A DNA stretch of 64,000 bases from Brevundimonas vitisensis (lineage in GTDB: Bacteria > Pseudomonadota > Alphaproteobacteria > Caulobacterales > Caulobacteraceae): assembly GCF_016656965.1 (NCBI RefSeq), contig NZ_CP067977.1:2132501-2196500 (forward strand), written 5' to 3'. Positions 41,183 to 64,000 of this stretch are shown here, in pieces; the first letter of the stretch is position 1; each line of letters opens with the position of its first letter. Below the pieces are notes generated by a model. That model was not told the DNA's origin. It made no database searches and was given only the letters and a program-made list of their open reading frames with translations. The translations under genes and the position numbers were made by a program.

Positions 41183-41259
41183 GGCCCCGTAGCTCAGCCG
41201 CATAGAGCAAGGCTTTCCTAAAGCCGAGGTCGCAGGTTGGAGTCCTGCCGGGGTCGCCA
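41183..41259 (+). tRNA. tRNA-Arg (anticodon CCU)
   Basis: 77 nt folding as a cloverleaf with encoded CCA (41257-41259). The acceptor stem GGCCCCG/CGGGGTC has one G-U pair. D stem GCTC/GAGC, anticodon loop TTCCTAA (41215-41221, CCT), T stem GCAGG/CCTGC. It is odd in two ways. Position 19 is C and position 56 is G, a reversal of the universal G19-C56 tertiary pair. The first pair of the anticodon stem (27-43) is A-G. Pairing overall is good, so it may still work. Confidence 0.9.
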
Positions 41260-45938: not shown

Positions 45939-46295
45939 CTATTCGCGCAGAATCTTCTGCATCGAACGGCCCTTGGCCAGTTCGTCGATCATCTTGTCCA
46001 GATAGCGGATTTCCCGCATCAGCGGATCTTCGATGGTCTCGACGCGGACACCGCAGATCAGGCCGGTGATCGTGGTCCGGGCCGGGTTCAGCCGGGGAGC
46101 CTGGGCGAAGAAGGTCTCGAAATCGGTCTTGTCCGCCAGATGGGTGTCCAACTGGACTTGGGTGTAGCCGGTCAGCCAGGTGATGATCTGATCGACCTCT
46201 TCACGGCTGCGCCCCTTCCGCTCGGCCTTGGCGACATAGTGAACATGCACGCTGGCGACGCTCATCCGATAGACGCGGTGCGGGACCTCCGTCAT
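45939..46295 (-). CDS. DUF2200 protein
   Basis: 118 residues, small soluble, DUF2200 throughout: [24 protein letters not shown] near the N-terminus, ITWLTGYTQ and [20 protein letters not shown] blocks in the middle, and [23 protein letters not shown] at the end. Function unknown. It overlaps the end of the CoA-transferase frame by 4 nt and so may be co-transcribed with it. Confidence 0.87.
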
Positions 46296-47443
46296 CCGTG
46301 CACCACGCCGTCATGGCGCAGGGCCGCAATCGCCTCAGCGTCGAAACCGGCCTCGGCCAAGATGGCATCGGTGTCGGCCCCGATGGGGCGGGGGGCACGC
46401 GGCGGGCCGGGCGGGGTCTGTGACAGGCGCGGTGCAGGCGCGGGCTGTGTGATGCCGTCCAGGGTGACGAAGGTCTGGCGGGCGGCATTGTGCGGATGGT
46501 CGCGCGCCTCCGGCATGGACAGGACCGGCGTCAGGCAGGCGGCGTCCGCCTCGAACGCCTCGGCCCATTCGTCGCGCGTCCGGGTCAGGAAGACGTCCTG
46601 CAGCCGGGCCTTCAGCACGGGCCAGTCGGCGGGCGACATCTGGGCATCGAAGGCCGGGTCATCGGTCAGGCCCGCCACGCGGCGCAGGGCCGCATAGAAG
46701 GCCGGCTCGATCGCACCGACCGCCACATGACCCCCGCAGCGGGTCCGGTAGGTGTCATAGAAATGGGTCCCGCCATCCAGCAGATTGACCCCCCGTTTGT
46801 CGCGCCAAAGCCCCTGGGCCCGGAAGCCCCAGGTGATGGCACTGAGCAGGGCCGAGCCGTCGGTCATGGCGCAATCCACCACCTGGCCCCGGCCCGTGGT
46901 GCGCGCCGACAGGATGGCGGCCAGCATTCCGAAGGCCAGCATCATGCCGCCGCCGCCGAAATCGCCCAGCAGGTTCTGCGGTGCGATGGGGCGGCCGCCC
47001 TTCTCGCCGATGCCGTGCAGCACGCCGGACAGGGCGATGTAGTTGATGTCGTGGCCGACCCGCTGGGCCCAGGGACCGGTCTGGCCCCAACCGGTCATCC
47101 GGCCATAGGCCAGGGCCGGGTTGACGGCCAGAAGGTCGTCAGGCCCCAGACCCAGACGCTCCATCACGCCCGGCCGGAACCCCTCGATCAGGCCGTCGGC
47201 CGTCTTGACCAGGGCCTTGATCACGCCGGCGGCCTGGGGCGATTTCAGGTCCAGTGCGATGGACCGGCGCGACCGCGACAGGATGTCGGCCGGGCGGCCC
47301 GAGGCAGGTTGCAGGGGGTTGCCGCCCGGACGCTCGACGCAGATCACCTCTGCCCCATGGTCGGCCAGCATCATGCCGGCAAAGGGGCCGGGCCCCAGGC
47401 CCGCGATCTCGATAATGCGAATGCCGGAAAGTGCGCCTGTCAT
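46292..47443 (-). CDS. CaiB/BaiF-family CoA-transferase or alpha-methylacyl-CoA racemase
   Basis: 383 residues of class III CoA-transferase fold. It has the N-terminal [33 protein letters not shown] segment and a racemase-like centre ([20 protein letters not shown], with His and Asp suited to alpha-methyl racemisation rather than the transferase Asp). Members either move CoA between acids or invert the 2-methyl group of branched side chains, as in steroid or pristanate breakdown. It lies in the catabolic block. Confidence 0.88.
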
Positions 47444-47480
47444 CCGACCGTTCTAGCGAAGAAGATCGGAAAGGGGCAGG

Positions 47481-48686
47481 TCAGCGCGGCAGCTTGTCGG
47501 GACGATAGTCCTGTGGGAGGCCCAGGATGCGCTCGGCCACGGTGTTCAGCAGCATTTCGTCCGTGCCGCCCGCGATCCGCAAGGTGGGCTGGTCCATCCA
47601 GGACATGGCGAAATCGGTCTTGGGCCGCGGGTGTGCGGCGGCATCGAAGCGCAGACCATCCGTGCCCAGAAGATCAAGCGCGCACAGGGCCACCTCGCGT
47701 CGGCCTCGTGCTCCGACCAGTTTGTGGATCGACCCCTCTGGTCCCGGCTCTCGCCCGGCGGCCAGTTCCAGTATGGATTTCTCGCTGATCGCCAAAAGGC
47801 CCTGCTGGGTGGCGTAGGCCTGAGCGATCACGGCCCGGACGCGGCCATCTTCCAGGGCCGGGCGACCGTCTAGCTGCGCTTCGCGGGCCAGGCTGATCAG
47901 GGCATCCAGCGGTGGCCCGAAGCCGGTCTCGTCGGCGGCGGCGGTGTAGCGCTCGATCATCAGGGTCTCGACCGCCAGCCGGAACCCGTCGCCCACCCCG
48001 CCCAGGCGCCAGGCGTCGGGAACGCGAACGTCGTCGAAGAAGACCTCGTTGAACTCTGCAGCGCTATGCAGCTGGCGGATCGGACGCACCGTCACGCCTT
48101 GGGCCTTCAGATCAACGAAGAAATAGGTCAGGCCGCGGTGCTTGGGCGCGTCGGGATCGGTGCGTGCGACGATGACACCATAGTCGGAGTACTGGGCAAA
48201 GGTGGTCCAGACCTTCTGTCCACTGATGATCCAGTCCTCACCGTCGCGGACGGCCCGGGTCCGCACAGCCGCCAGGTCGGAGCCGGTGGAGGGCTCGGAG
48301 AAAAGCTGGGACCAGATCTGCTCGCCGCGCAGGGCCGGGGGCACGAAGCGCGCCTTCTGCTCAGGCGTCGCATAGCGCAGCATCATCGGGATCGGCATCG
48401 ACAGGCTGATGACGAAATAGCCTGCCGGAAAGCCTCTCGCTGCCTCCTCGGCCACGAAGATGACCTGTTCCAGCTGGGTCAAACCCGCGCCGCCGTACTC
48501 TGTGGGGAAGGTCAGGCCCGCATAGCCGGCGGCCGCCTTGGTCGCTTGCCACCGCCGGGCCAGGGCGATGTCGTCATCCAGCGACAGACCCAGGCGCGCG
48601 GCCTGTCCGTACTCGGCGACGTGAGGGTCCATGAAGGCGACGACACGATCGCGGAACGCCTCCAGTTCGGGGGACAAGGAGGTCAT
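47481..48686 (-). CDS. Acyl-CoA dehydrogenase, large subunit of a pair
   Basis: 401 residues, complete ACAD fold. The middle strand domain holds QLFSEPSTGSDLAAVRT, the flavin/substrate loop KVWTTFAQYSDYGV follows, the helix with the conserved Glu-Arg is LMIERYTAA, and the end is GGTDEMLLNTVAERILGLP. It should dehydrogenate a CoA thioester at C2-C3. The start at 48686 overlaps the next acyl-CoA dehydrogenase gene, and the two differ in residues as the alpha and beta subunits of heteromeric enzymes do. Confidence 0.9.
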   Translation of the reverse strand: MTSLSPELEAFRDRVVAFMDPHVAEYGQAARLGLSLDDDIALARRWQATKAAAGYAGLTFPTEYGGAGLTQLEQVIFVAEEAARGFPAGYFVISLSMPIPMMLRYATPEQKARFVPPALRGEQIWSQLFSEPSTGSDLAAVRTRAVRDGEDWIISGQKVWTTFAQYSDYGVIVARTDPDAPKHRGLTYFFVDLKAQGVTVRPIRQLHSAAEFNEVFFDDVRVPDAWRLGGVGDGFRLAVETLMIERYTAAADETGFGPPLDALISLAREAQLDGRPALEDGRVRAVIAQAYATQQGLLAISEKSILELAAGREPGPEGSIHKLVGARGRREVALCALDLLGTDGLRFDAAAHPRPKTDFAMSWMDQPTLRIAGGTDEMLLNTVAERILGLPQDYRPDKLPR

Positions 48687-49783
48687 GCGGCGACTCCGGC
48701 GATGACGCGGCGTGCGACCACATCCTGCCATGGCCCGCGACCGCCCAGTTCCAGAGCCAGGGCGCGACTGCGGCGGAAGAACAGATGCAGGTCATGTTCC
48801 CAGGTGATGCCAATGGCACCATGGGTCTGGATGGCCTCTGTGGCGGCGAACTCGTAAGCGTCTATGGCGGTCAGGCGCGCGGCTCCAGCGCGCAGGACCA
48901 GATCACCGGCATCGTCCCGCAGTGACAGGGCGGCCCGCAGGGCATTGCCGCGCGCCAGTTCATTGGCAACATACATCTCGGCGATGCGGTGCTTGATAGC
49001 CTGGAATTTGCCGATCGGCTGGCCGAACGCCTGGCGCTCATTGGCGAAGTTGCGCGCACGCTCCATGCAGGCTTCGGCACCGCCCAGCTGTTCAAACGCC
49101 ACTATGACGGCGACACGGGCCAGCAGTTCCAGCGCGGCATCCCCGGCGTGTTCGGTCGCCAGAACTTCTGCTGGTGCACTGTTGAAGTGCAGAACCGCAT
49201 AACCGCGGCTGTTGTCGAAGGTCTGAACGGGTTCGGGGTGTGCCTGCTCGTCCAGAGCCACCAGGACCAGGACATCCCCCCCGGTCGCGGTGTCTCGCGC
49301 CACGGTGACCAGCAGGTCTGCCCAGGCCCCGGCGGCGACCAGGCCGGTGGCCCCGGACAGCCTGCCGTCCGTCCAAGCCAGCCGTTCGCCTCCATCCAGG
49401 GCGGAGGTCAGGTCTATTGCCCCGGTCCTTTCGCCGTTCGCCAGCCCGGCCAGATACCGGCCCTGCTGATCATTGCTGCCAAAGCGGCGCAGAGCCTCGC
49501 TCACCCCATAGCCGGTGGACAGGAAGGGAGCCCCGCCGACGAACCGCCCGACGACCTCTGCCGTCAGACATAGCGCGATCGGCCCCAGGCCCAGGCCGCC
49601 GTGATCTTCGGATATGGTGATGCCGGTCCAACCCATGTCGCGGCAGGTCGTCCAGAAGCGGTCGTCATGAGCCCCGACCCGTTCCAGCAGATGGCGCAGC
49701 CCATCCGGCGACCAGCCGTCCGACAGGACGCGCTCGGCCTCCTGAACGATCTGGCGATGGTCGTCGTCCAGCAAGAAGGGCAT
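48683..49783 (-). CDS. Acyl-CoA dehydrogenase-like partner subunit
   Basis: 366 residues, ACAD fold with RARNFANERQAFGQPIGKFQAIKHRIAEMYV and THGAIGITWEHDLHLFFRRSRAL. The helix where active members show a Glu-Arg pair reads LLARVAVIVAFEQLGG, so the base is not evident. It is probably the non-catalytic, FAD-sharing subunit of a heteromer with its overlapping neighbour. Coupled by a 4-nt overlap to 47481-48686. Confidence 0.85.
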   Translation of the reverse strand: MPFLLDDDHRQIVQEAERVLSDGWSPDGLRHLLERVGAHDDRFWTTCRDMGWTGITISEDHGGLGLGPIALCLTAEVVGRFVGGAPFLSTGYGVSEALRRFGSNDQQGRYLAGLANGERTGAIDLTSALDGGERLAWTDGRLSGATGLVAAGAWADLLVTVARDTATGGDVLVLVALDEQAHPEPVQTFDNSRGYAVLHFNSAPAEVLATEHAGDAALELLARVAVIVAFEQLGGAEACMERARNFANERQAFGQPIGKFQAIKHRIAEMYVANELARGNALRAALSLRDDAGDLVLRAGAARLTAIDAYEFAATEAIQTHGAIGITWEHDLHLFFRRSRALALELGGRGPWQDVVARRVIAGVAA

Positions 49784-49792
49784 GGGCGTCCT

Positions 49793-51901
49793 CTACAGGC
49801 CCGCAGCGATAAGGGCGGGGGCATCCTTCCACCCCTTGCCCTCGGCGACCAGCCGCTCCAGCAGGCGCGACGGGCCCCAGCGCGTCTGGCCGTTCTCGGC
49901 CCCCAGGGTGCGGGCGGTGGCCAGCACCTTGTCCAGGCCGATCTGCTCTCCCCAGAACATCGGCCCGCCGGTGTGCACGGGGAAGCCATAGCCGTTGACC
50001 CACGCCACATCGATGTCGGACGCGCGGATGGCGATGCCTTCCTCCAGCTCCTTGGCCCCTTCGTTGACCAGGGGGTGGAACAGTCGGGCCAGAATCTCCT
50101 CGTCGGTAAAGCTGCGCTGTTCGATGCCCTGGCGCTGTGCCTCAGCGCGGATCAGGTCCAGGGCGGCGGGGTCGGGGAGACGCTCGCGACCGTCATACCG
50201 GTAGAAGCCGGCGGAGGACTTCTGTCCGATGCGCCCGGCCTCGACCATGCGCTCGACCAGTTCGGGCATTCGCTCGTCGGCCGGAAGGGTCAGTTTGCGA
50301 ACAGCGCGCACATTGACGGCCTGGGCCATGCCCGCCAAGTCGCGCATGGCCAGGGGACCCATGGCCATGCCGAACTGTTCGGCCACGCGGTCAATCTGTT
50401 CCGGCGTCGCGCCACGTTCCAGCATGTATTCGGCGTTGACGGTGTAATACTGCAGCATCCGGTTGCCGATGAAGCCGTCGCAGTTGCCGGCCAGAACCGG
50501 GGCCTTTCCGATCTGCTTGCCCAGGGCCATGACGGTGGCGATCGTCTCGGCGCTGGTTTTCGATCCGCGCACCGCCTCCAGCAGCTTCATCACATTGGCG
50601 GGGCTGAAGAAGTGCGCCCCAATGACCTTGTCAGGCCGGGTCGTGGCGGAGGCGATCTGGTCGATGTCGAGTGACGAGGTATTGGTGCCCAGGATGGCAT
50701 GGGGCGGGGTTGCCTTGTCCAGCAGGGCGAAGATCTTCTGCTTCAGGGCCATGTCCTCGAACACCGCCTCGATGGCCATGTCCACGTCGCCCAGGTCGTC
50801 ATAGCCGCCGACCGGCTCGATCCGCCCGAACCGCTCGTCAAGCTGCGCCTGGGTAATCGAGCCGCGCGAAAGCGAGGTTTCATAGGTCTTGCGGATCACG
50901 CCCATGCCGCGCGCCAGGGCCTCCGCGTCGATGTCCAGCAGCTTGACCGGGATACCGGCATTGGCGAACGACATGGCGATGCCGCCGCCCATCAGGCCAG
51001 AGCCGATCACCACCACCTTGCGGATCGGCAGCGGTTTGATGTCGGCTGGGACGTCCGGAATCTTGCGGGCTTCCCGCTCGGCGAAGAAATAGTGGATCAG
51101 GGCCTTGCGCTGATCGCTCTCCATCAGCGCCTTGAACTGCTCGTTCTCAAAGGCCTTGGCGTCGTCGAAGCTCCGGGTGGTAGCAGCCTCGATGACGTCG
51201 ACGATTCGGGCCGGAGCGATCTGGCCGCGCCATTTCTTGCCGGCCCTGGCGCGGAAGTCGGCGAAGACCTTTGGGTCTACGCCGGTGATCTTGTCGTTGC
51301 GATCGCGGACGGGCGGCGGGGTGCCCTCGGCCGCCAGCTTCAGGGCATAGCCGATGGCGTCGGCCTTAAGGTCGAAGACGATGGCATCCACGATGCCCAG
51401 CTTGTTCGCCTCCACCGCGCCGATGTGGCGACCGGTGGTGATGGCCTCCAACGCGACCACGACGCCGGTCAGGCGCGGCAGGCGGATCGTACCCCCGGCC
51501 CCCGGAAGCAGGCCCAGTTTTACCTCGGGCAGGCCGACCTTGGCCGACTGGACGGCGACGCGGGCATGGCAGGTCAGGGCCAGTTCCAGTCCTCCGCCCA
51601 GGGCCGTGCCGTGGATGGCGGCGACGATCGGCTTCGGGCTGGCTTCGAACTGGGCCTGGAGAGTCTGCAGCCGCGGCTCGGCGGCACTGTTGGGTGTGCC
51701 GAACTCGCTGATGTCCGCCCCGGCGATGAAGATGGTGCCGCTGCCGATCACGACGATGGCCTTGACCGCCGGGTCGGCGATGGCTCGCGCCACGCCCTCC
51801 CCCAGGCCGGCGCGGACCGCCAGGCTGAGCGCATTGACGGGGGGGTAGGCCACGGTCAGGACGGCGACCGAACTCTGGACGGCATAGTCGACAGTGGACA
51901 T
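49793..51901 (-). CDS. Enoyl-CoA hydratase/3-hydroxyacyl-CoA dehydrogenase fusion (FadB/FadJ type)
   Basis: 702 residues. The crotonase domain (about 1-190) has both glutamates, in [11 protein letters not shown] and [16 protein letters not shown] linker follows, then the NAD-binding domain with [16 protein letters not shown] (about 300-480) and the His-Glu active site in [17 protein letters not shown], and the C-terminal dimerisation domain. It does steps two and three of beta-oxidation. The start at 51901 removes 20 unrelated residues. Probably serves the catabolic block; thiolase is not adjacent. Confidence 0.93.
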
Positions 51902-52017
51902 AAAAGCTCCGGGGACAGGACCTCTCTGTCTTAGGCGCGGGCGGAAGTCCGGCTCAACCACACCGCGCGCCTGGCCGGGCTTGATCGCTCACGCGATAGG
52001 CCCGGACCGCAGCGGGG

Positions 52018-52785
52018 TCAGGCCAGGACTTGCCCGTCGTCGGCGGCGAATACGCCCCCTGTGATGGTGCGCGAAGCATCCGATGCCAGGAAGGTGACGA
52101 TGCCATCCAGATCCTCCGGATTCATCACCCGGCGGCGAGGAAAGGTCTTGATCAGCTTCTGTCCGCCTTCGCCCGCCAGCCAATCGGCGTTCAGTTCTGT
52201 GACGATCCAGCCGGGGCAGATGGTGTTGACGTTGATGCCGTGGCGCGCCCATTCGCGGGCCAGCCCCTTGCCCAGCATGGCCACCCCGGCCTTGGAAGCC
52301 GAATAGGCGGTCAGTCCGGCCAGGGGCCGTAGGGACCCGACCGAGCCCAGCAGGATGATCCGTCCCCGCGACGGGTCGGGCGACGCGATCAGGCGGCGGG
52401 CCCCCTCGCGCGCCGTCAGATAGACACCCTGCACATTGATCCTCAGCAACTGGCCCAGGTCGTCGGAGGGCAGCTCCGTGGCCGGGCCCTGGGCGTTGAC
52501 GCCCGCATTGGCCAGGATCAGGTCGACCGTGCCGAAGGTTGCCTCGGCATGGTCGTAGGCGGCGATGATGGAAGCTTCGTCCTCCACGTCCATCTCGACC
52601 GGTTCGATCCGCCCGCCGTCGGCCCTGATGGCGTCGGCGAGGGACTTCAGCCGGTCCAGCCGTCGCGCCCCGGCTACGACATTGACGCCTTGCGCCGCCA
52701 GCATCCGGGCAAAGCGGGCCCCCAGCCCGGAGGAGGCGCCGGTCACCAGAGCGGTGCGGCCGGTCAGATCGAAGGGGGAAGGCAT
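52018..52785 (-). CDS. Short-chain dehydrogenase
   Basis: 255 residues, classical SDR: TGASSGLGARFAR (12-24 region), NAG in LANAGVN, catalytic Ser in LLGSVGSLRPLAG, and Y-S-A-S-K in LTAYSASKAGVAMLGK. PGWIVTELNA follows. Probably a hydroxy/keto interconversion in the catabolic block. It lies between the FadB-type gene and the Old Yellow Enzyme gene, same strand. Confidence 0.88.
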   Translation of the reverse strand: MPSPFDLTGRTALVTGASSGLGARFARMLAAQGVNVVAGARRLDRLKSLADAIRADGGRIEPVEMDVEDEASIIAAYDHAEATFGTVDLILANAGVNAQGPATELPSDDLGQLLRINVQGVYLTAREGARRLIASPDPSRGRIILLGSVGSLRPLAGLTAYSASKAGVAMLGKGLAREWARHGINVNTICPGWIVTELNADWLAGEGGQKLIKTFPRRRVMNPEDLDGIVTFLASDASRTITGGVFAADDGQVLA

Positions 52786-52812
52786 GCGTCGGGACTCCGT
52801 GGCATTGGGGTT

Positions 52813-53967
52813 TCAATAAAGCTGGGCGAGCAGGGCCTTGCCGAACGGGATCCGCTGATCCAGCCGGCCCGTGCGGACCTTCTCGGCCCAGTCTGGATCG
52901 GCCAGCATGGCGCGGCCCACGGCGATCATGTCGAACTCGCCCGCCGCCATCAGGGCCTCGACCCGGTCGACGCCGTCCAGGTCGGAATCGCCGAAGCTGA
53001 TGGTCTGGGTATTGACCTGGGTGGGCGAGGCCTTGGCAGTCGAGGCGACCCCGGCCAGGCCCACGCTGCCGACAGCGATGACGGGTTTGCCAGTGATGTG
53101 GCGGGTCCAGCCGGCCAATGTCCGCTCGGACAGATCGCGAAATCCGGCCTCCCAGAAACGGCGGGTGGAGGCATGGAAGATGGACACCCCTGCGTCGGAC
53201 AATGGCCCCAGGAGGGTCTCCAGCTCCTGAGGTGTCTGGGCCAGGCGCGCCCGGTAGTCCTGCTGCTTGAACTGGGACCAGCGGAACGACAGGGGAAAGT
53301 CCGGCCCGACCCGATCGCGGATCGCCCGCACCACCTCGATGCCGAAGCGCGCACGGGCGGCCAGGGTCGGCCCGCCCCAGGAATCGTCGCGGCGATTCGT
53401 CTCGTGCCAGAAGAAGGTGTCGATCAGATACCCGTGGGCGGCGTGCAGTTCGACGCCGTCGAAGCCCAACGCCTGAGCATTGGCGGCGGCGCTCGCATAG
53501 GCGTCGATGACGTCGGCGATGTCCGTCTCGGTCATCGGCTTGGTGACGTGGGTGGTGTTCTCGAAGGCGTTCAGGTTCTCGGACGGTCCAAAGCCCGGCA
53601 CCTCGCGATCGGGGGCCATGCCGATCTCGCGAAAACTGCCCGTGTGCCAGAGCTGAGGCATGATCCTGCCGCCCTCGGCATGGACGGCATCCACGACCCG
53701 CTTCCACCCGGCCAGTGATGCCTCGCCATAGAAGCGGGGCACATTCTCATAGCTGTGGGCCGAGGGGTGGCCGATATAGGTGGCCTCGGTGACGATCAGC
53801 CCGCAGCCGCCCCGCGCCCTGCGTGCGTAATATTGGACCACATCGTCGTGCGGGATTTCCTCTGGGCAGAAGTATCGCGACATCGGGGCCATGACCACGC
53901 GGTTAGCCAGATGCAGCGGGCCGATCGTTAGGGGCTGAAACAGCGGACTGTCGGAACCGGCGGTCAT
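52813..53967 (-). CDS. NADH:flavin oxidoreductase, Old Yellow Enzyme family
   Basis: 384 residues, one TIM barrel: LANRVVMAPMSRYF for FMN binding, QLWHTGS, and GVELHAAHGYLIDTFFWHETNRRDDSWGG with the HxxH catalytic pair. The barrel ends in GEFDMIAVGRAMLADPDW. Such enzymes reduce alpha,beta-unsaturated ketones or 2-enoyl groups. It lacks the extra FAD/NADH domains and 4Fe-4S cysteines of BaiCD/BaiH-type reductases. Start ATG 53967. It is divergent from the CoA ligase. Confidence 0.9.
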   Translation of the reverse strand: MTAGSDSPLFQPLTIGPLHLANRVVMAPMSRYFCPEEIPHDDVVQYYARRARGGCGLIVTEATYIGHPSAHSYENVPRFYGEASLAGWKRVVDAVHAEGGRIMPQLWHTGSFREIGMAPDREVPGFGPSENLNAFENTTHVTKPMTETDIADVIDAYASAAANAQALGFDGVELHAAHGYLIDTFFWHETNRRDDSWGGPTLAARARFGIEVVRAIRDRVGPDFPLSFRWSQFKQQDYRARLAQTPQELETLLGPLSDAGVSIFHASTRRFWEAGFRDLSERTLAGWTRHITGKPVIAVGSVGLAGVASTAKASPTQVNTQTISFGDSDLDGVDRVEALMAAGEFDMIAVGRAMLADPDWAEKVRTGRLDQRIPFGKALLAQLY

Positions 53968-54138
53968 GTCGGGGTCCTTTGGCAGGGGCAGGCCTACAGA
54001 CTGGTTGGGACGCAACGCACGCGCCAGCAGGCAGTCGGGGTCATCGCATGGCCGATCAAGCATGAGATCGGCTTAGGCGCACCGGGACCTGCGGTCTAAT
54101 GTGGCGGCTGGCCCTGCGTCAGACGGGGCGATGATGGG

Positions 54139-55533: not shown

Positions 55534-56231
55534 TGATGAGCCTCGCCCCCCAATCCGCCTGGACCGCCTACGACCCAGACGCCCCCGACGCCCTGTGGGC
55601 CATCGGCACAGCCTCCTCAGCCGGAGGCCCCGTCGAATATGCCCTGTCGAACCGCGATGTTGAGGCCGACGCCCTATGGGCCGCGCGTCAACTGGATGCC
55701 CTGGGTGTCGGCCAGGGGTCGCTGATCGACCTGATCCACAACTATCGCGAGGGCGGACAGTTCTGGCCCTTCTATCTGGCGGCCTTGCGGATCGGCGCCG
55801 TCGTGCTGAACGGCATGGCGACACCGTGGGATGTCAGTCGCACCGAAATGTATGCGCGCCGTTTCGATCTGCAGGTCCTGATGGGGGCTGGCGGTCAGAC
55901 AGTGGAGGGGCTGGGCAGCTTCGGCTTTGACCCTGCAGCGGTGCTGCGACGCACCCAGGTCCTGGTCGCGCGCGAGGAGGCGGTGCCGGGCCTGCGTGAG
56001 ATGGGGCTGGACCCGCACAGCCTGGCCTTTCTGGGGCCGCTCGTCCTGATCACCTCTCCGGGTGAGGCTGGCGCACCCTATGACGCGGATCAATGGACCG
56101 TCGCCGCCGACGCCGCCGGGCACCTGCGGGTGACGTCTGCCGCCGCGCGCGCCTGCGGCTTCGTCGATCTGGACACCGGGCGGACGGGGCGGGTTGTCGA
56201 TGGCCGCATCCATCTCGATCCGGCGTCATGA
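55533..56231 (+). CDS. Truncated AMP-binding (acyl-CoA synthetase N-terminal) protein
   Basis: 232 residues. It resembles only the first subdomain of an AMP-forming ligase: ADALWAARQLDALGVGQGSL, then FWPFYLAALRIGAVVLNG. The catalytic SSGTTG loop, the GEP segment and the C-terminal lid are absent. The ATG overlaps the PaaK-type gene stop and its own stop overlaps the next start, so it is kept as an operon member, perhaps a partner subunit, rather than decaying. No frameshifted remainder is seen downstream. Confidence 0.65.
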   Translation: MMSLAPQSAWTAYDPDAPDALWAIGTASSAGGPVEYALSNRDVEADALWAARQLDALGVGQGSLIDLIHNYREGGQFWPFYLAALRIGAVVLNGMATPWDVSRTEMYARRFDLQVLMGAGGQTVEGLGSFGFDPAAVLRRTQVLVAREEAVPGLREMGLDPHSLAFLGPLVLITSPGEAGAPYDADQWTVAADAAGHLRVTSAAARACGFVDLDTGRTGRVVDGRIHLDPAS

Positions 56232-56785
56232 GTCAGCCGGACCTGCTGGCCCGACTGGAACGGGTCGAGGCGCAGCTGGCGATCCAGCAACTGGCCATTC
56301 GTTATGCCATGGCGGTGGACGCCCGGGACATCGATACCTGGCTGGGGCTGTTCGTCGACGACATCGACTGCGGACGCCGGGGTCGGGGGCGAGAGGCCCT
56401 ACGAACCTTCATCGAGCCGGCCACGCGCGACTTCTATCGTACCGTTCATTCCATCACCGGCCATGCCATCGATGCGATCGAGGGTGACCGGGCCAGGGGG
56501 CGGGTCTATTGCCGGGCAGAGCACGAATACGGCGACCAGTGGATCGTCATGGCCTGCGTCTACCACGACACCTATGAGCGCCGGGACGGGACCTGGTATT
56601 TCGCGGGGCGGGAAGAGGACTTCTTTTACACCTGCGATGTGCTGGAAAGGCCGCAGGACGTCGACTTCGCGCGGTGGCCGGGGCCCGCGCCGAAACACAA
56701 TCCGCCGATGATGCTGCCGCGCTTTCCGAACTGGCAGACCTTCTGGAGCGGTACCGACGTGTCGGCCATCAGCCGCAAGCCCTGA
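56228..56785 (+). CDS. NTF2/SnoaL-fold dehydratase-like protein
   Basis: 185 residues, one cone-shaped NTF2 fold. Tyr26, Asp31 and His79 have the same spacing as the Tyr30/Asp35/His83 triad that I recall for the bile-acid 7alpha-dehydratase BaiE. Near the N-terminus is LAIRYAMAVDARDIDTW and later HSITGHAIDAIEGDRA. It may remove water from a hydroxylated ring or a 3-hydroxyacyl group. Its ATG overlaps the upstream stop codon. SnoaL-fold isomerase is the alternative. Confidence 0.75.
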   Translation: MSQPDLLARLERVEAQLAIQQLAIRYAMAVDARDIDTWLGLFVDDIDCGRRGRGREALRTFIEPATRDFYRTVHSITGHAIDAIEGDRARGRVYCRAEHEYGDQWIVMACVYHDTYERRDGTWYFAGREEDFFYTCDVLERPQDVDFARWPGPAPKHNPPMMLPRFPNWQTFWSGTDVSAISRKP

Positions 56786-56791
56786 TCGCCC

Positions 56792-57598
56792 TCAGGTTCC
56801 GGCCAGGAAGTCGCGAAGGTCGGGCATGTGTCCCTGGTGGCTCTGCGCCCCGCCATCGACGCTGTAGACCTGGCCATTGACGAAGCCCGCCTCGTCGCTG
56901 GCCAGATAGACCGCCATCCAGCCGATGTCGTCGGGGCGACCGCCGCGGGTGACCACGTTCTGACGCATCAGCGCCTTTTCCAGCTTGGCCCGGCGGTCGT
57001 CGACCACCGGCTTGGTCGGGATGTAGCCGGGCGAAATGGCGTTGCAGCGCACCCCCTGGATTCCGTGCTGGGCCGCCACATAGCGGGTCAAGGTCGCCAG
57101 ACCAGCTTTTGAACAGGCGTAGGCCGTATTGGCCAGGTCCCCCAGGTTCATCGAGTTGGAGCAGATATTGATGATGGCTCCCGATCCCTGCGCCACCATG
57201 TGCGGCACGGCCTCGCGGCACATCAGCATGGGCCCGCGCAGATTGATGGCCATCAGCCTGTCCCACAGGTCGCTGGTCTGTTTCAGCAGGGGGCCGTCCT
57301 GGGTCGCGGCCAGGACCGTGGCGGCGGCATTGTTGACCACCACATCCAGTCGCCCGAACCGGTCGACCGTCTGGGCCACCAGGGCCTTGATCGAGTTTTC
57401 AGATCCGATGTCGCCGATCAGGGCGACCGCGTCACCGCCCTCGCTCCGCAGCCGCTCGGCCAAGGTCTCGGCCTTGTCCAGGTCGATGTCGGCGATGACC
57501 ACGCGCGCGCCCTGCGACACGAACAGCGCGGCAGTTCCAGCCCCGATCCCCGACGCCGCCCCGGTGATGATCGACACTTTTCCGGCCAGCCGTGTCAT
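56792..57598 (-). CDS. Short-chain dehydrogenase
   Basis: 268 residues, classical SDR: TGAASGIGAGTAAL, the VVNNAAATV turn, catalytic Ser in INICSNSMNLGD, and YACSKAGLATLTRY with Tyr-x-x-x-Lys. It is family-typical and convergent with the NTF2 gene. The start ATG 57598 removes a long non-homologous extension. Role inferred as a hydroxy/keto oxidoreductase in the same catabolic block. Confidence 0.88.
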   Translation of the reverse strand: MTRLAGKVSIITGAASGIGAGTAALFVSQGARVVIADIDLDKAETLAERLRSEGGDAVALIGDIGSENSIKALVAQTVDRFGRLDVVVNNAAATVLAATQDGPLLKQTSDLWDRLMAINLRGPMLMCREAVPHMVAQGSGAIINICSNSMNLGDLANTAYACSKAGLATLTRYVAAQHGIQGVRCNAISPGYIPTKPVVDDRRAKLEKALMRQNVVTRGGRPDDIGWMAVYLASDEAGFVNGQVYSVDGGAQSHQGHMPDLRDFLAGT

Positions 57599-57754
57599 GC
57601 TCGTCTCCCGCGCCACTGCGTGCTGCAGACTATGGGCTGGTTCGACCAGCGTCGCGACGCCGCTGTCCGTGATCGCAACAGCGATAGCCGCAGGCCCACA
57701 GTGGCGCGCATCGCGATGACGTGGGAGGCAGGCCATGACCAGACGGAAGACGCC

Positions 57755-58198
57755 ATGATCGATCACAGTCATATCGGGGCCGAGACGGAGGAGGTGTCCA
57801 TCCTCGTCGAACAGAGCCAGCTGAAGCTGTTCTGCCAGGCGACCGGCGAGACGAATGCCGTTTTCTGGGACGCCGAGGCGGCGCGGGCAGCGGGGCTGGA
57901 CGCGGTGCCGACGCCGCCGACCTATGCCCAGACCCTGCTGAACCTCAGCCCGTTCAGGACCAATCTGGTCCTGGATGTGATGCAGGTCGACCTAGCGCGT
58001 ATGCTGCATGGGGAACAGGCGTTCGAGCATCATCACCCGATCCGGGTGGGTGACACCGTGCGACTGAAGCAGCGGGTTGCCGACATCTATGACAAGAAGG
58101 GCGGTGCGCTGGAGTTCATCGTTCTGGAAACGGTCGCCCGCAATCAGGACGACGTCGTCTGCTGCACGCTGAAAAGCGTCGCTGTGGTCCGGAACTGA
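57755..58198 (+). CDS. MaoC-like hot-dog protein lacking the hydratase residues
   Basis: 147 residues, MaoC N-terminal type: LKLFCQATGETNAVFWDAEAARAAG, then HHHPIRVGDTVRLKQRVADIYDKKGGALEF. In hydratases the catalytic motif is D-x-N-P-x-H; here it reads E-T-N-A-V-F, with the catalytic His replaced by Phe. It lies 7 nt before a MaoC gene that keeps the motif, so the two probably form a heteromer, as ChsH1/ChsH2 do. Confidence 0.82.
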   Translation: MIDHSHIGAETEEVSILVEQSQLKLFCQATGETNAVFWDAEAARAAGLDAVPTPPTYAQTLLNLSPFRTNLVLDVMQVDLARMLHGEQAFEHHHPIRVGDTVRLKQRVADIYDKKGGALEFIVLETVARNQDDVVCCTLKSVAVVRN

Positions 58199-58205
58199 GG
58201 CCGCC

Positions 58206-58625
58206 ATGAAAGCAATCGATCTGTCGAATGTCGCCGTCGGCGATGCCCTGCCCACCCTGACGACGGAACCGGTCACCCCGCTGACGCTGGCCCTGTTCGC
58301 GGGTGGATCGGGCGATCACAACCCGATCCACCTGGATCCGGAGTTCGCGGCCTCGGGCGGATTCCCCGAGGTCTTTGCCCACGGCATGCTGTCAATGGCC
58401 TATCTGGGACGCGCCCTGACCGACTGGGCGGGGCCGACCGCGGTGCGGTCGTTCAGCGTGCGGTTCGCCGCCATCACACCCTTGCGGGCCCGCCTGGCCT
58501 GTGGCGGCGAGGTGGTGGAGATTCTGGGGCGGGACGGTGAGCGCCTGGCCAGGCTGACGGTGACGGCTGCTGTCGTGGACGGGCCGGTGACCTTGATGGG
58601 CGATGCTCTGGTCCGGATTGCTTGA
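58206..58625 (+). CDS. MaoC-like enoyl-CoA hydratase
   Basis: 139 residues, hot-dog fold with the hydratase-2 motif G-D-H-N-P-I-H-L-D (Asp37, His42), then FPEVFAHGMLSMAYLGRALTDW. It hydrates 2-enoyl-CoA. Together with the adjacent degenerate MaoC it resembles split heteromeric steroid side-chain hydratases. Confidence 0.88.
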   Translation: MKAIDLSNVAVGDALPTLTTEPVTPLTLALFAGGSGDHNPIHLDPEFAASGGFPEVFAHGMLSMAYLGRALTDWAGPTAVRSFSVRFAAITPLRARLACGGEVVEILGRDGERLARLTVTAAVVDGPVTLMGDALVRIA

Positions 58626-58628
58626 GCC

Positions 58629-59774
58629 GTGGACCTGAGTTTTTCGCCCGAGGACAATGCCTTTCGCGATGAGGTCCGCGCCTTCATCGCAAGCGAGCTG
58701 TCGCCCGAGACGCGGCGCCGGGTCGAAGAAGGGCGCGCCCTGACCAAGGCCGATGTGGTCGACTGGCAGCGGACCCTGAACGCGCGCGGATGGGCCACAC
58801 CCAGCTGGCCAGCCTCTGCCGGAGGGCCGGGCTGGACTGCTGTGCAGCGATACATCTTCATGGATGAGCTCTATGCCGCCAGCGCGCCGGAGCCCCTGTC
58901 CTTCAATGTATCGATGATCGGACCGGTCCTGATCGAATACGGCAATCAGGACCAGAAGGAACGGTTCCTGAAGGCCACCGCCAATCTGGACATCTGGTGG
59001 GCCCAAGGGTTTTCCGAGCCGGGGGCAGGGTCGGATCTGGCTGCCTTGTCGACGACAGCGGAGAGAGATGGCGATCACTACGTCGTCAATGGCCAGAAGC
59101 TGTGGCAGGGCATGGCCCACCGGGCCGACTGGATGTTCACCCTGGTCCGCACCGATCCGGCGGCCCCCAAGAAGCAGGGGGGTATCAGCTTTCTGCTGAT
59201 CGATCTGAGGTCGCCGGGCATCACCATCCGGCCCATCATCACGATCGACGGTCGGCATGAGGTGAATGAGGTCTTTCTGGACGATGTCCGCGTGCCCGTG
59301 GCCGACCGGATCGGCGAGGAGAACCAGGGCTGGACCTATGCCAAATACCTTTTGTCCAACGAGCGCACCGGCATCGCGCGCATCGGCATGACGCGGCGGG
59401 TGCTGGCGCGCGTGCGCGATGCGCTGGGTGCCTCCGGGGCCGAAGGTCGGTATGGGCGGGAGGCCGATGCCATCGAGGCGGAGTTGAAGGCGCTGGAGAT
59501 CACCCAGTTGCGGGTGCTGGCGGCCCAGGCCGCGGGTCAGACCGATCCGCGATCCTCAATCCTGAAGATCAAGGGAACGGAGCTGCGTCAGGCGGCGTCG
59601 GAACTGCTGATGCGTGTCATCGGACCGGCAGGGCTGGAGTTCGTCTATGAGGGCGAGGGAGAGGCCCCCTTCGAGGCGGCATCCAACTATTTCACCCTGC
59701 GGGCCGCCTCCATCTATGGCGGGGCGTCAGAGGTGCAGAAGAACATCATCGCCTCCAGCGTGCTGGGGCTGTGA
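58629..59774 (+). CDS. Acyl-CoA dehydrogenase, catalytic-type subunit
   Basis: 381 residues. Middle domain WWAQGFSEPGAGSDLAALST, loop KLWQGMAHRADWMFTLVRTD, Glu-Arg in LLSNERTGIARIG, and C-terminal SIYGGASEVQKNIIASSVLGL. It uses a GTG start (58629) three nt after the MaoC gene. It forms a pair with the next ACAD gene, which lacks these motifs. Likely a heteromeric ACAD for a bulky substrate. Confidence 0.92.
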   Translation: MDLSFSPEDNAFRDEVRAFIASELSPETRRRVEEGRALTKADVVDWQRTLNARGWATPSWPASAGGPGWTAVQRYIFMDELYAASAPEPLSFNVSMIGPVLIEYGNQDQKERFLKATANLDIWWAQGFSEPGAGSDLAALSTTAERDGDHYVVNGQKLWQGMAHRADWMFTLVRTDPAAPKKQGGISFLLIDLRSPGITIRPIITIDGRHEVNEVFLDDVRVPVADRIGEENQGWTYAKYLLSNERTGIARIGMTRRVLARVRDALGASGAEGRYGREADAIEAELKALEITQLRVLAAQAAGQTDPRSSILKIKGTELRQAASELLMRVIGPAGLEFVYEGEGEAPFEAASNYFTLRAASIYGGASEVQKNIIASSVLGL

Positions 59775-60775
59775 GCATGAATTTCGACCTGACCGAAGAC
59801 CAGGCCATGCTGAAGGACACCGCCGAGCGGCTGTTCGCCGAGGCGGCGGACGGGGCCGGCGTTTGGGCGCGGATGGCCGAGATGGGCCTGCTGGCCGCGC
59901 CCTTTGCCGAGGATGACGGCGGTCTGGGCCTGGGGCCGGTGGAAACGATGATCGTAGGCGAGGCGATGGGCCGGGCGCAGGCAGTGACGCCCTATGCCGG
60001 TGCCATCACTGCCGCTGGAACGGCATTGCGGCTTGCGGACCGTGCGCCCGAGGGCCTGATCGCGGCCCTGGCTGGTGGGGAGAAGCGGGTCGCCTGGGCC
60101 TGCGACGGCGATTTGGCGGCCACGACAACGCTCGACGGCTGGCGGCTGTCGGGCCACAAGATCAATGTCGACCATGCGGCGGGCGCAGACGCTTTCGTGG
60201 TCACAGCTCTGGATGGTGCAAGTCCGTTGGTGCTGATCGTGACGGCGGATGCGGCAGGGCTGACCCAGCGCGACTACCGCCTGTTCGACGGGGCGGCGGC
60301 GTCAGAACTCCGTTTCGAGGGTGTGGGTCCGACAGCCGTCCTGGCCGAGGGCGAGACGGCTGAGGCGCTGATCGCGCGGGCCGGGGAGCACCATACGGCG
60401 GCGCGGGCGGCTGAGGCCGTCGGCCTGATGCAGGCCGTGCTGGATGCGACGCTGGAGCATCTGAAAACCCGGCGTCAGTTCGGTATGACCCTGTCCAGCT
60501 TTCAGGCCCTTCGGCACAAGGCGGCGGATATGCTGGTGGCCCAGGAACAGGCCCGGTCCATGGCGATGTTCGCGGCGCTGTCCGTCGAAGATCCGGATGC
60601 GGACGTCAGGCGCAAGGCCCTGAGCCAAGTCCGGTCGGTGGTGGGCAAGGCGGCGCGTCTGGTCGCCCAGACAGGGGTTCAGCTGCACGGCGGTATCGGG
60701 GTCACCGAAGAACACCCCGTCGGGCGCGCCTCCCGTCGCTTGACGCTGATCGATCTGGAGATGGAACGCGGATGA
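59771..60775 (+). CDS. Acyl-CoA dehydrogenase-like partner subunit
   Basis: 334 residues, shorter than standard. It has KTRRQFGMTLSSFQALRHKAADMLV and GVQLHGGIGVTEEHPVGRASRRL, but the Glu-Arg helix of the catalytic-type neighbour is not evident: the corresponding stretch reads GEHHTAARAAEAVG. The GTG at 59771 overlaps the previous stop (GTGA); an ATG lies two codons later. Likely the non-catalytic half of a heteromer with 58629-59774. Confidence 0.85.
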   Translation: MSMNFDLTEDQAMLKDTAERLFAEAADGAGVWARMAEMGLLAAPFAEDDGGLGLGPVETMIVGEAMGRAQAVTPYAGAITAAGTALRLADRAPEGLIAALAGGEKRVAWACDGDLAATTTLDGWRLSGHKINVDHAAGADAFVVTALDGASPLVLIVTADAAGLTQRDYRLFDGAAASELRFEGVGPTAVLAEGETAEALIARAGEHHTAARAAEAVGLMQAVLDATLEHLKTRRQFGMTLSSFQALRHKAADMLVAQEQARSMAMFAALSVEDPDADVRRKALSQVRSVVGKAARLVAQTGVQLHGGIGVTEEHPVGRASRRLTLIDLEMERG

Positions 60776-61476
60776 CCGGCGCAGTGCGCCCCCTCGACGG
60801 CGAACTGGCCCTGATCGTCACGCACGGCCTGTCCATCATCGCGGGGGTGGCCGAAGGTCTGGACGATGCGGGGGCGGATGTCCGGGTTGTGGCGGACCCG
60901 CGCCTGTCGGGATCGCGCGATCTGGTCAGGGAGGTTTTGCTGGAGGCCCTGGATGGCCGCGTGCCTGCTTTGGTGGTGGTCAGTCTGCTGAACCATGATG
61001 TCGCAGATCAGCGACCCATGGCGGACCAGAGCCCTGCCGACTGGCGGACCGGGGCTATCGCGCCGATCCGTATGGCCATGCAGGTCCTCAGCGTCCTGGG
61101 CGAGGTGATGAAGCCCGCCGGTCGGGGAAGTATCGTCTTCCTGGCCCCCTCGCTGTCGCTGGTCGGCGGCGACGGCCGCGTGGCCTTGGTGACGGCGCTG
61201 GAAGGGCAGCGGGGTCTGGTCAAGTCCGTGGCGCGCCAGTGGGGCGCAACCGGGGTGACGGTCAACTGGATCGCTGCGGCGCCGGTTGCCCTGTCGGATC
61301 AGTTTGCTGCGGCAACCCTGGCAACCAAGGGCGATGCCGTTCCTGTGGCGCTGGGACGCCGACCCAATGCACGGGCCGAGATCGCCTCGCTCGCGGCCTG
61401 GCTGGCCGGGCCGGGCGGGCGGGGCGTGACGGGGGCGACCCTGATGCTGGATGGCGGCGAATGGATGGTGCCATGA
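60772..61476 (+). CDS. Degenerate SDR-family protein (pseudoenzyme)
   Basis: 234 residues with an SDR ground plan but no active site. Where active SDRs have TGxxxGxG it reads VTHGLSIIAG; where Tyr-x-x-x-Lys should be it reads L-V-T-A-L. Conserved flanks QRGLVKSVARQWG and TGATLMLDGG make the alignment to the next gene clear. Start overlaps the ACAD stop and its stop overlaps the next SDR start, so it is a maintained operon member, probably a structural partner. Confidence 0.82.
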   Translation: MTGAVRPLDGELALIVTHGLSIIAGVAEGLDDAGADVRVVADPRLSGSRDLVREVLLEALDGRVPALVVVSLLNHDVADQRPMADQSPADWRTGAIAPIRMAMQVLSVLGEVMKPAGRGSIVFLAPSLSLVGGDGRVALVTALEGQRGLVKSVARQWGATGVTVNWIAAAPVALSDQFAAATLATKGDAVPVALGRRPNARAEIASLAAWLAGPGGRGVTGATLMLDGGEWMVP

Positions 61477-62264
61477 GCGCGATGGACTGGACCCCTGTGG
61501 CCGGTCTGCTGGCCGGACGCACGGCCCTGGTCACCGGGGCCAGTGGGGGTGTCGGGCGGGGTCTGGCACAGGCCCTGGCCCTGGCCGGGGCGTCCGTCAC
61601 GGTCGCGGCCCGCAGTCCGGTCGGCGGACACGAGACGGTGGCCCTGATAGACGCCGCCGGGGGACGGGCGCTGTTCGTGCCGACCGATGTCTGCGACGAC
61701 GTCGCCGTCCGGACGGCCGTCGATCGCACCGTTCAGGCTTTCGGTGGGCTGGACATTGTCGTGCACAATGCGGCCAGCACCCTTTCGAAGCCGACGCCGC
61801 TGGAAGCGATCGACGAAGCCTTGTGGCTGGAACAGGCCGGGGTGTCGCTGGACGCCCTGCATCACCTGGCTACAGCCTCCCTGCCGCACCTGCGGGGTAC
61901 CGGGCGCGGGCGTTTCCTGGTTCTGACCTCGGCCCAGGGGCAGCACGGGGGGGCGATGAACCCGGCCTATACGGCCCTGAAGGCGGCACAGAGAGGCTTC
62001 GTCAAATCACTGGCGCGCGAATGGGGTCCGCATGGAGTGGTCGTCAACGCCTTGGCTCCGGCGGCTCTGACCGATGCTGCGCGAACCTATCTGGAAGCCG
62101 ATCCGGACCGCACGCGCGAGGCGATGAAGAGTTTCCCTCTCGGGCGGATGGGCGACATGCGCGACGATATCGGACCGGCCGCCGTCGCCCTGTGCAGCGA
62201 TCTGTGGCGTTATGTGACCGGTCAGACCGTCAATGTGGACGGCGGCTATTACACCGCGCTTTAG
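61473..62264 (+). CDS. Short-chain dehydrogenase, canonical
   Basis: 263 residues with all SDR motifs: VTGASGGVGRGLAQAL, HNAASTL, Ser in LVLTSAQGQHGG, and Y-T-A-L-K. Its ATG overlaps the stop of the degenerate SDR, whose C-terminal half is alignable to it. It probably oxidises a 3-hydroxyacyl-CoA or ring hydroxyl. It ends convergently with the aldehyde dehydrogenase, overlapping by 4 nt. Confidence 0.9.
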   Translation: MSAMDWTPVAGLLAGRTALVTGASGGVGRGLAQALALAGASVTVAARSPVGGHETVALIDAAGGRALFVPTDVCDDVAVRTAVDRTVQAFGGLDIVVHNAASTLSKPTPLEAIDEALWLEQAGVSLDALHHLATASLPHLRGTGRGRFLVLTSAQGQHGGAMNPAYTALKAAQRGFVKSLAREWGPHGVVVNALAPAALTDAARTYLEADPDRTREAMKSFPLGRMGDMRDDIGPAAVALCSDLWRYVTGQTVNVDGGYYTAL

Positions 62265-63694
62265 GCCGAAGCCGTCAACTTCACGTCCAGATAGGCCAGC
62301 AGACCCTCGGCCCCGCCTTCCGAACCGTGACCGGAATCGCGCACGCCGCCGAAGGGTGTCTCGGGGTTCGACACGGCCAGAGTGTTGATGCCGACCATGC
62401 CCGCCTTCAACGCAGCCCCGATATCGGCAACCCGTCGCGCCGAGGAACTGAAGGCATAGGCGGCCAGGCCATAGGGCAGGCTGTTGGCCCGCCCCACGAC
62501 CTCGTCGAAGTCGTCGAACGGTACGATAGGGGCCACCGGCCCGAACGGCTCTTCGCACATGACCAGGGCCGCATCGTCCAGGCCCGTGATGACCGTGGGC
62601 GCATAGAACCAGCCCTCGTTTCCGTGCCGCTCTCCACCCGTCTCGATCCGACCGCCCCGGTCGCGTGCGTCCTGAACCAGGGCCTCCATCGCCGCGATCC
62701 GGCGGGGATTGGCCAGCGGGCCCATCTGGACTCCCGCACCGAGGCCGTCGCCGACCTTCAGGCTGCGGGCCACCTCAGTGAACCGCGCCGCGAAACGATC
62801 GTGAACTGCCGCCTGGACGAAGAAGCGTGTGGGGGAGATGCAGACCTGTCCGGCATTGCGGTATTTGGCGATGGCGGCCGTCTCGGCCACCGCCTCGACA
62901 TCGACATCGTCGAAAACGATCACCGGGCCATGCCCGCCCAGTTCCATGGTGGTGCGCTTCAGATCATCTGCGCATAGCCGCATCAGCGACTTGCCGATGG
63001 CGGTCGAGCCGGTGAAGGATACTTTGCGAATTTCGGATGCGGCGATCAGCCGGGCCGAGACGGTGGCCGGGTCGCCGAACACAAGGTTCAGCACGCCCGC
63101 CGGCAAGCCCGCGTCAGCAAAGGCCCGTGCGATCTCGACGGCGGTGCCCGGCACCTCCTCCGCCGCCTTCAATACCAGGGTACAGCCCGCGGCCAGCGCC
63201 CCGCCGATCTTGCGACAGGGCGTCAGGGCCGGGAAGTTCCAGGGGGTGAAGGCCGCCGCCGGTCCGACCGGTTCGTGCGTCACCGTCATCACCACGCCGG
63301 GAACCCGGCTGGGCACCACGCGGCCATAGGTGCGGCGACCCTCCTCGGCATACCAGTCGATGACGTCCGCAGCGTAGGCGATCTCGCCCCGGCTCTCGGC
63401 CAAGGGCTTGCCCTGTTCCAGGGTCATGACGACGGCGATGGCTTCAATCCGTTCACGGATCAAAGCGGCTGCGCGGCGCAGGATCGCCGAGCGCTCCACG
63501 GCCGTTGTCGCCGCCCAGGCGGGAAAGGCGCGGGCCGCAGCCGCCACGGCCTCGTCCAGATCGGCATCCGTGGCATGGGGCAGGTCGGCAATCGGACGGG
63601 CCGTGGCGGGATTGAAGACAGGCTCGGTGGTGCGTGTGTCCGCGGACACAAAGCGTCCGTCTATGAACAGGGCCAGGGTCGAATAGTCGGTCAT
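62261..63694 (-). CDS. NAD(P)-dependent aldehyde dehydrogenase (GabD-like)
   Basis: 477 residues, full [36 protein letters not shown], the catalytic Glu in [12 protein letters not shown], and nucleophile Cys in [11 protein letters not shown]. Closest in pattern to succinate-semialdehyde dehydrogenases, but its position beside the GMC gene suggests it oxidises an aldehyde of the catabolic block to an acid. ATG 63694 overlaps the GMC stop, so they are coupled. Confidence 0.93.
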
Positions 63695-64000
63695 GCGCGC
63701 GCGTCCTCCAGGATCATGTCGGCGGCCTTTTCGGCGATCATGACGATGCCGGCATGGGTGTTGCCCGACAGGACGAACGGCATGATCGAACCGTCCACAA
63801 CCCGAAGCCCGCCGATGCCGCGCACCCGCAACCGGGCATCCACGACGGCACCCGCATCGTTGCCCATCCGCGCCGTACAGGTGGGGTGGTAGATGGTCGA
63901 ACCCCTGGCACGGCAATAGGCCAGCAGATCTTTGTCCGAGGCGCAGTCCAGGCCGGGCTCGACTTCGTGGTCGATGAAGGGGGCGATGGCGGGCTGGCGC
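63691..64000 (-). CDS. GMC-family oxidoreductase, C-terminal part (runs off the window)
   Basis: Only the last 102 residues are visible. They show the GMC C-terminal signature: [42 protein letters not shown] (active His and Asn region), and [10 protein letters not shown]. The family (choline dehydrogenase, alcohol oxidases) uses FAD to oxidise alcohols. Coupled to the aldehyde dehydrogenase gene, it fits an alcohol-to-aldehyde-to-acid route. The N-terminal FAD domain lies beyond 64000. Confidence 0.92.

Follow-up and report, generated by a model that had tools for sequence, protein, structure and literature searches.

AMP-forming coenzyme A (CoA) ligases of the PaaK type, including PaaK1/PaaK2, BT_0428 and 2-hydroxyisobutyryl-CoA ligase, are the closest known systems for the enzyme considered here. 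The aryl-CoA ligases treated in the relevant sections of a review are monomers or (homo)dimers, and a truncated paralogue as a partner is not described in those sections (PMC8388817). An inert partner subunit is established for the MaoC-fold enzymes ChsH1-ChsH2 and HadAB; in these and in HadBC, according to the parts of the account bearing on them, the active subunit is joined by a homologous inert one, and it is the latter to which the bulky or long portion of the substrate binds (PMC11321319). Here we analyzed a 64,000-nucleotide stretch of the Brevundimonas vitisensis chromosome (hereafter the window; contig NZ_CP067977.1, G000:C1:2132501-2196500; one contig of 2.98 Mb, rated 100% complete), in which a PaaK-like AMP-forming CoA ligase gene (54139-55533, + strand), the proposed catalytic subunit, is followed immediately by an open reading frame (ORF; 55533-56231, +) that had been left unnamed in an earlier reading of the DNA from its letters alone (hereafter the sequence-only reading). 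We propose that this ORF encodes an inert ligase partner, a stand-alone truncated PaaK-fold domain, and that both genes belong to a catabolic island for bulky acids; we put the probability of this whole explanation at about 0.5. The component that would be new, a two-subunit AMP-forming CoA ligase in which an active PaaK-type protein is joined by a truncated, dead paralogue that tunes its pocket, is possibly the first of its kind, and we place it just short of an even chance.

A truncated PaaK-fold protein behind the CoA ligase

Gene calls were made by Pfam and NCBIfam scans of the window proteins, and the ligase proved to be PaaK-type in its NCBIfam ranking, its PDB profile and its fold and, with no BaiB model tested directly, not BaiB-type, as the sequence-only reading had held. 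The start of the partner gene lies inside the ligase stop (TGATG), and its own stop overlaps the start (ATGA) of a gene for a LinA-like SnoaL_4/NTF2-fold protein (56228-56785, +). The window copy of the partner had no Pfam match up to E 10 and no NCBIfam match up to 1e-3. Among 5.8 billion proteins, 23 homologues were found by sequence and at least 27 by profile (scored on the 7997 candidates sharing most words); every source name listed for them is "hypothetical protein", and none carries a precomputed Pfam domain. Alignment of the partner with the ligase by hhalign covered ligase residues 123-361 (97.8%, E 1e-12). In searches with an AlphaFold model of the partner (pLDDT 95.2), PaaK-type ligases filled the first 19 Foldseek rows and the first 14 VIA-align rows, and the model has the fold of the PaaK N-domain. 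The same structure comparisons include a phenazine biosynthesis protein of about 350 residues with the PaaK fold (3hgu, 3hgv, 3l2k), which we take, in name and biology, to be EhpF; this type of protein is longer than the partner and biosynthetic.

Regular expressions for the P-loop (A3), R-[YF]-R-[ST]-x-D (A7) and HKIPR (the A10 lysine) matched 0, 0 and 0 of 73 partners, compared with 80, 76 and 48 of 86 ligases, the ligase counts being partly by construction because their loci were retrieved via P-loop and GPPHKIPR patterns. By its predicted model, the partner is a truncated PaaK-fold domain without the P-loop, A7 and lysine motifs.

The pairing was then followed through the best 80 of 140 loci encoding a relative of the ligase. 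A partner was present in 70 of the 80 (68 by tblastn at 1e-4, plus L018 and L031 by hidden Markov model), and it stood directly behind the ligase in 65 of the 68, starting between -34 and +106 nt relative to the ligase stop, gaps that lean small since the start codon closest to that stop was taken for each partner. Both Proteobacteria and Actinomycetota have the gene pair, and it is found, with the partner annotated as "hypothetical protein", on plasmids of Rhodococcus jostii RHA1, Sphingomonas paeninsulae, Massilia putida and Rhodococcus sp. DMU1. Homologues labelled Brevundimonas sp. share 83% (ligase) and 57% (partner) identity with the window proteins. Ligase and partner distances were correlated over 70 pairs (r 0.975) and over the 28 pairs below 65% ligase identity (r 0.71), with 0 of 1000 permutations in either case, in a measure that ignores shared descent. 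Natural ligase-partner fusions were considered and rejected: apparent long frames in L017 and L029, the two checked by coordinates, belong to the partner and not to the ligase, and none of the 120 ligase homologues listed of 876 exceeded 496 aa.

Shared descent, uncorrected for in the distance correlation, is one of several points that weigh against a two-subunit ligase. Among the ten loci without a partner, the ligase is cut at the contig end in two (L044, L079), and the remainder comprise L022 and L023 (45% identity), with no partner within the roughly 10 kb examined, plus six loci whose ligases are more distant (L076, L077, L082-L085). The three of 68 loci in which the partner is not directly behind the ligase are L013 and L015, with the partner upstream (L013/L015:7754-8344), and L070, with a fragment 524 nt away. 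On plasmid pSA2 of Novosphingobium resinovorum (L092) the partner is likewise apart from the ligase, by 14 kb, with an annotated AMP-binding protein directly behind it (L092:33475-35711); a FadD-type gene stands behind the partner in 12 of the 68 loci. Retrieval via the ligase also means that cases of partner without ligase are under-sampled. A ligase-independent search, in which 7 to 21 candidates were scored per genome and misses are possible, gave 2 of 131 genomes in the genus (our own, plus G049 with a match that is weak and partial) and 12 of 398 in a phylum sample (our own and 11 weak partial matches). Furthermore, two phenylacetate:CoA ligases of Azoarcus evansii are monomers according to the review passages cited above (PMC8388817), so members of the family may not have to dimerise. 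Finally, what the data show is the genes with their order and overlap, the recurrent pairing, the homology, the predicted fold and the loss of motifs; that ligase and partner form a physical complex, how this would change the range of acids accepted, and the substrate itself are what we infer.

The pSA2 arrangement and the 12 FadD-type neighbours would suit an alternative in which this pseudo-ligase works with a protein other than the PaaK-like ligase (e.g., a FadD-type ligase), or binds acyl-adenylates or acyl-CoA or has a regulatory role, its closeness to the PaaK-like gene being operon membership only. We regard this as unlikely, though still a serious minority view, given that the partner itself has a PaaK-type fold and directly follows the PaaK-like gene in nearly all loci with a partner, albeit loci retrieved via that gene.

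The partner is a cut-down PaaK paralogue. Missing from it are the C-terminal domain, the N-terminal part and the P-loop, A7 and lysine motifs; what it retains is the core of the N-terminal domain, which PaaK1 is described as using to dimerise. If ligase and partner do form one enzyme, the partner would in the simplest reading replace one protomer of a PaaK-type homodimer, giving a heterodimer with one active site. It may shape or stabilise the acyl pocket and could adapt freely to the substrate, an argument made for inert MaoC subunits in the passages on them (PMC11321319). Such a ligase would carry the principle of the MaoC-fold enzymes to an adenylating enzyme. Our literature search, with subscription papers outside it and hence weak evidence of absence, found among the titles and abstract openings listed no description of a heteromeric, pseudoenzyme or noncatalytic CoA-ligase subunit.

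Dehydrogenase and MaoC pairs of the island

The other enzymes of the island also come repeatedly as candidate two-subunit forms. The adjacent genes for an alpha-type (ACADc, 58629-59774, +) and a beta-type (ACADd, 59771-60775, +) acyl-CoA dehydrogenase have 4x28, which we take to be ChsE4-ChsE5, and Tcur3483/Tcur3481 as their top-scoring solved relatives. In the PDB ranking of ACADc, 4x28_A (191.6 bits) stands ahead of Tcur3483 (165.8) and of 8hk0_A (120.6), which is named merely acyl-CoA dehydrogenase, whereas ACADd scores 75.2 with Tcur3481 (6wy8_A), 74.1 with 4x28_D and 72.9 with generic dehydrogenases, a closeness that makes its steroid-type assignment weaker. The Glu of ACADc aligns with residue 247 of 4x28_A, presumably the catalytic residue, and the pair thus has the ChsE4-ChsE5 arrangement of adjacent alpha and beta genes with the Glu in alpha. 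In the published accounts, as far as the pertinent sections go, the catalytic Glu is on the alpha subunit and the beta subunit touches the ADP-ribose of FAD (PMC11153573), and an enzyme of Thermomonospora curvata is a bile-acid-specific heterotetramer, for which the review gives no locus names (PMC8399759).

Across the island, the EP..GSD and E-R motifs were found in all five alpha subunits, and the R-x-QFG expression matched four of the five beta subunits. At the Glu column, which lies in a gapped stretch, three of five beta subunits have E and none has E-R, so that loss of the Glu in beta subunits is not clean; this too counts against the proposed pattern of active and inert subunits.

The two MaoC-type genes show the same kind of division. 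MaoCa (57749-58198, +; PF13452, HadA-like below cut-off) lacks the D-x-N-P-x-H motif, and MaoCb (58206-58625, +; PF01575), nearest to HadB in the PDB search, carries the dyad motif as SGDHNPIH, a pair like ChsH1-ChsH2 and HadAB in having one subunit with the motif and one without. As a separate observation, a short-chain dehydrogenase/reductase (SDR; 60772-61476, +) with a degenerate N-terminal half, its Pfam and NCBIfam matches confined to the C-terminal part, adjoins a normal-looking SDR (61473-62264, +; read from its translation, with a homologue in L006), possibly another pair of active and inert subunits.

The sequence-only reading had described steroid-type heteromeric beta-oxidation. 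As far as sequence comparison goes, this architecture is largely supported at the enzyme-family level, for ACADc/ACADd and the MaoC pair and less firmly for ACADd itself; as a whole pathway it did not hold. In our proposal, the island would act on a carboxylic acid that is bulky and either branched or alicyclic, first activating it and then shortening it by CoA-bound beta-oxidation, with two-subunit enzymes for dehydrogenation, for hydration and, newly, for CoA ligation itself.

Bile-acid and steroid-nucleus pathways

The Bai operon of bile-acid 7-dehydroxylation, whose enzyme classes the sequence-only reading had recognized in this block, resembles the island in broad enzyme classes (CaiB, Old Yellow Enzyme (OYE), NTF2, SDR) and differs from it in OYE architecture and ligase family. 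The OYE gene (52813-53967, -; PF00724; ORF open to 54063) had been likened to BaiCD/BaiH, an OYE of about 640 aa with an Fe-S/FAD part, but encodes one FMN domain of 385-416 aa depending on the start, against a BaiCD model length of 642. It reached 168 bits with the BaiCD NCBIfam model, for which the cut-off is 825, and the best stretch aligned protein residues 41-262 with model positions 4-216 of 642, that is, with the N-terminal part of the model; its solved relatives are the single-domain OYEs Sye4, GTN reductase, morphinone reductase and OPR. The NTF2-fold protein (PF13577) had LinA as its top PDB match (35.9 bits), and among 18 chains at E<=1 none is named BaiE. The family III CoA-transferase of the CaiB/BaiF type (46292-47443, -; PF02515, 294.5 bits) is divergent, falling below the cut-off of all seven NCBIfam models listed (at best 127 of 750 bits). 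The Bai reading was dropped on the OYE architecture, the ligase family and the NTF2 relatives: the pathway of the island is not Bai-type, and to a bai-type reductive 7-dehydroxylation pathway, for which the class matches alone speak, we assign a negligible chance.

A steroid, as an example of a bulky hydroxylated alicyclic acid, had also been suggested as the substrate, with flanking genes expected to bear on it. Thiolase-fold genes and aldolase-like candidates do lie beyond position 64000; scans of the complete genome, however, gave 0 KshA_C matches and 0 matches to PF00848 for Rieske ring oxygenases, and the sole P450 of the genome is outside the island. No KstD candidate was found among 18 PF00890 matches, of which two are full-length (read as SdhA and NadB) and 16 run over short N-terminal stretches alone. 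Matches to PF00903 numbered 11, with two open frames above 290 aa, one HPPD-like and one a single VOC domain; by frame length, with 4 of the 11 read and the LigB type not searched, none is a candidate two-domain extradiol dioxygenase (HsaC).

Since candidates for KshA, a Rieske ring oxygenase and KstD were not found, this genome is unlikely to encode a full 9,10-seco steroid pathway, and degradation of the steroid nucleus was dropped as the likeliest function. Complete breakdown of steroids or bile acids by the island would account for the steroid-type ACADc/ACADd pair, the split MaoC pair and the aldolase-like pairs of thiolase and OB-fold proteins, but with these nucleus enzymes and a two-domain extradiol dioxygenase not found we judge it very improbable; that steroid-nucleus enzymes were not found also sets this genome apart from the ChsE4-ChsE5 and Tcur3483/Tcur3481 systems. 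The combination of side-chain-type tools with no nucleus enzymes found in a complete genome would fit an island that, acting on a steroid, terpenoid or similar polycycle, removes or shortens the side chain only and leaves the nucleus to other cells. This alternative, which concerns the substrate and is compatible with a two-subunit ligase, is a possibility we still consider rather unlikely, as the aldehyde dehydrogenase, GMC, OYE, NTF2 and amidohydrolase proteins and the many SDRs suggest further chemistry. What stands of the earlier suggestion is that a bulky branched or alicyclic acid is a plausible substrate. The gene neighbourhoods on five named plasmids, where a substrate clue was sought, held no recognisable pathway, and our literature search, with the limit given above, turned up no publication describing such a pathway for the genera concerned.

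Extent and context of the island

The gene classes and order that the sequence-only reading gave for 46292-64000 were confirmed by Pfam and NCBIfam, and the window scans agree with its statement that no thiolase, aldolase or ring-cleaving oxygenase lies inside the window. Besides the genes above, this block encodes a second alpha/beta pair of acyl-CoA dehydrogenases (ACADa, 47481-48686, -, with EP..GSD and ER motifs; ACADb, 48683-49783, -, without a Pfam middle-domain match and with IpdE2 as best NCBIfam model, 124 of 450 bits), a FadB-type enoyl-CoA hydratase/3-hydroxyacyl-CoA dehydrogenase (49793-51901, -), an SDR (52018-52785, -), a further SDR (56792-57595, -) matching hydroxysteroid-dehydrogenase NCBIfam models, all below cut-off, an aldehyde dehydrogenase (62261-63706, -; PF00171) and the 3' part of a GMC oxidoreductase gene (63691-64000, -) that reaches 65337.

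The block reaches beyond the 64000 given in the sequence-only reading: it carries on for about another 34 kb, up to about 97.6 kb, at which point ArgF and ArgD start (extended coordinates continue those of the window; L004 position + 63500, L086 position + 83500). The GMC oxidoreductase is followed by a DAO-type oxidoreductase, an amidohydrolase, a 4HBT thioesterase, FolE, a thiolase and crotonases, and then by a second CaiB, GntR and IclR regulators and a PRK06158-type thiolase with an OB-fold ChsH2_C partner. Farther on, and named from translations except for the first of the dehydrogenases, are three dehydrogenase pairs, another thiolase, another thiolase-fold/OB pair and two FadD-type ligases. 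Four thiolase-fold proteins were read by eye: a Cys occupies the nucleophile position in Thio1 and Thio3 and is absent from it in Thio2 (77802-79315) and Thio4 (93504 to about 95070), each of which adjoins an OB-fold gene and resembles Ltp2-ChsH2 or Sal-Shy. By analogy with Ltp2 and Sal, this suggests that Thio2 and Thio4 are aldolase-like enzymes. The GTP cyclohydrolase I gene (FolE; extended 69099-69680, L004:5599-6180, -), above its NCBIfam cut-off and overlapping the thioesterase and thiolase genes, may supply a pterin cofactor for some step or be a stray duplicate.

The window block is thus about the first third of a catabolic island of about 51 kb in a strain-variable region (window 38000 to extended 97100). 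The flanks of this region (window 35-38 kb and extended 97.1-99 kb) are about 5 kb apart in three of the four relatives examined and 59 kb apart here; the fourth (G105) has the right flank alone in common. In Caulobacter sp. BK020 (L006), 17 of the genes retain their order, with identities of 52-89%. A tRNA-Arg(CCT) lies at 41183-41259, inside the variable region; insertion at this tRNA is unsupported, no tRNA having been found in the four relative stretches. A small gene at 45939-46295 proved uninformative as a left boundary, its G105 relative being 780 kb from argF.

Neighbours in the 80 ligase loci (tblastn, 1e-8) included proteins like Thio2 in 53, the amidohydrolase in 48 and ACADc in 41, the NTF2-fold protein in 3 (L006, L042, L047) and the OYE in 1. 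By these counts the pair recurs in varied beta-oxidation neighbourhoods, and the full gene set of the window is rare among them.

Together, these findings correct the reading of the block as bile-acid-operon-like and give a concrete, testable role to a family of "hypothetical proteins" without Pfam domains. If the two-subunit ligase is real, the pairing of active and inert subunits described for steroid hydratases and dehydrogenases would extend to adenylating enzymes, and the first step of such islands would be heteromeric, like dehydrogenation and hydration. The partner would then also serve as a marker for uncharacterised islands for the catabolism of bulky acids.

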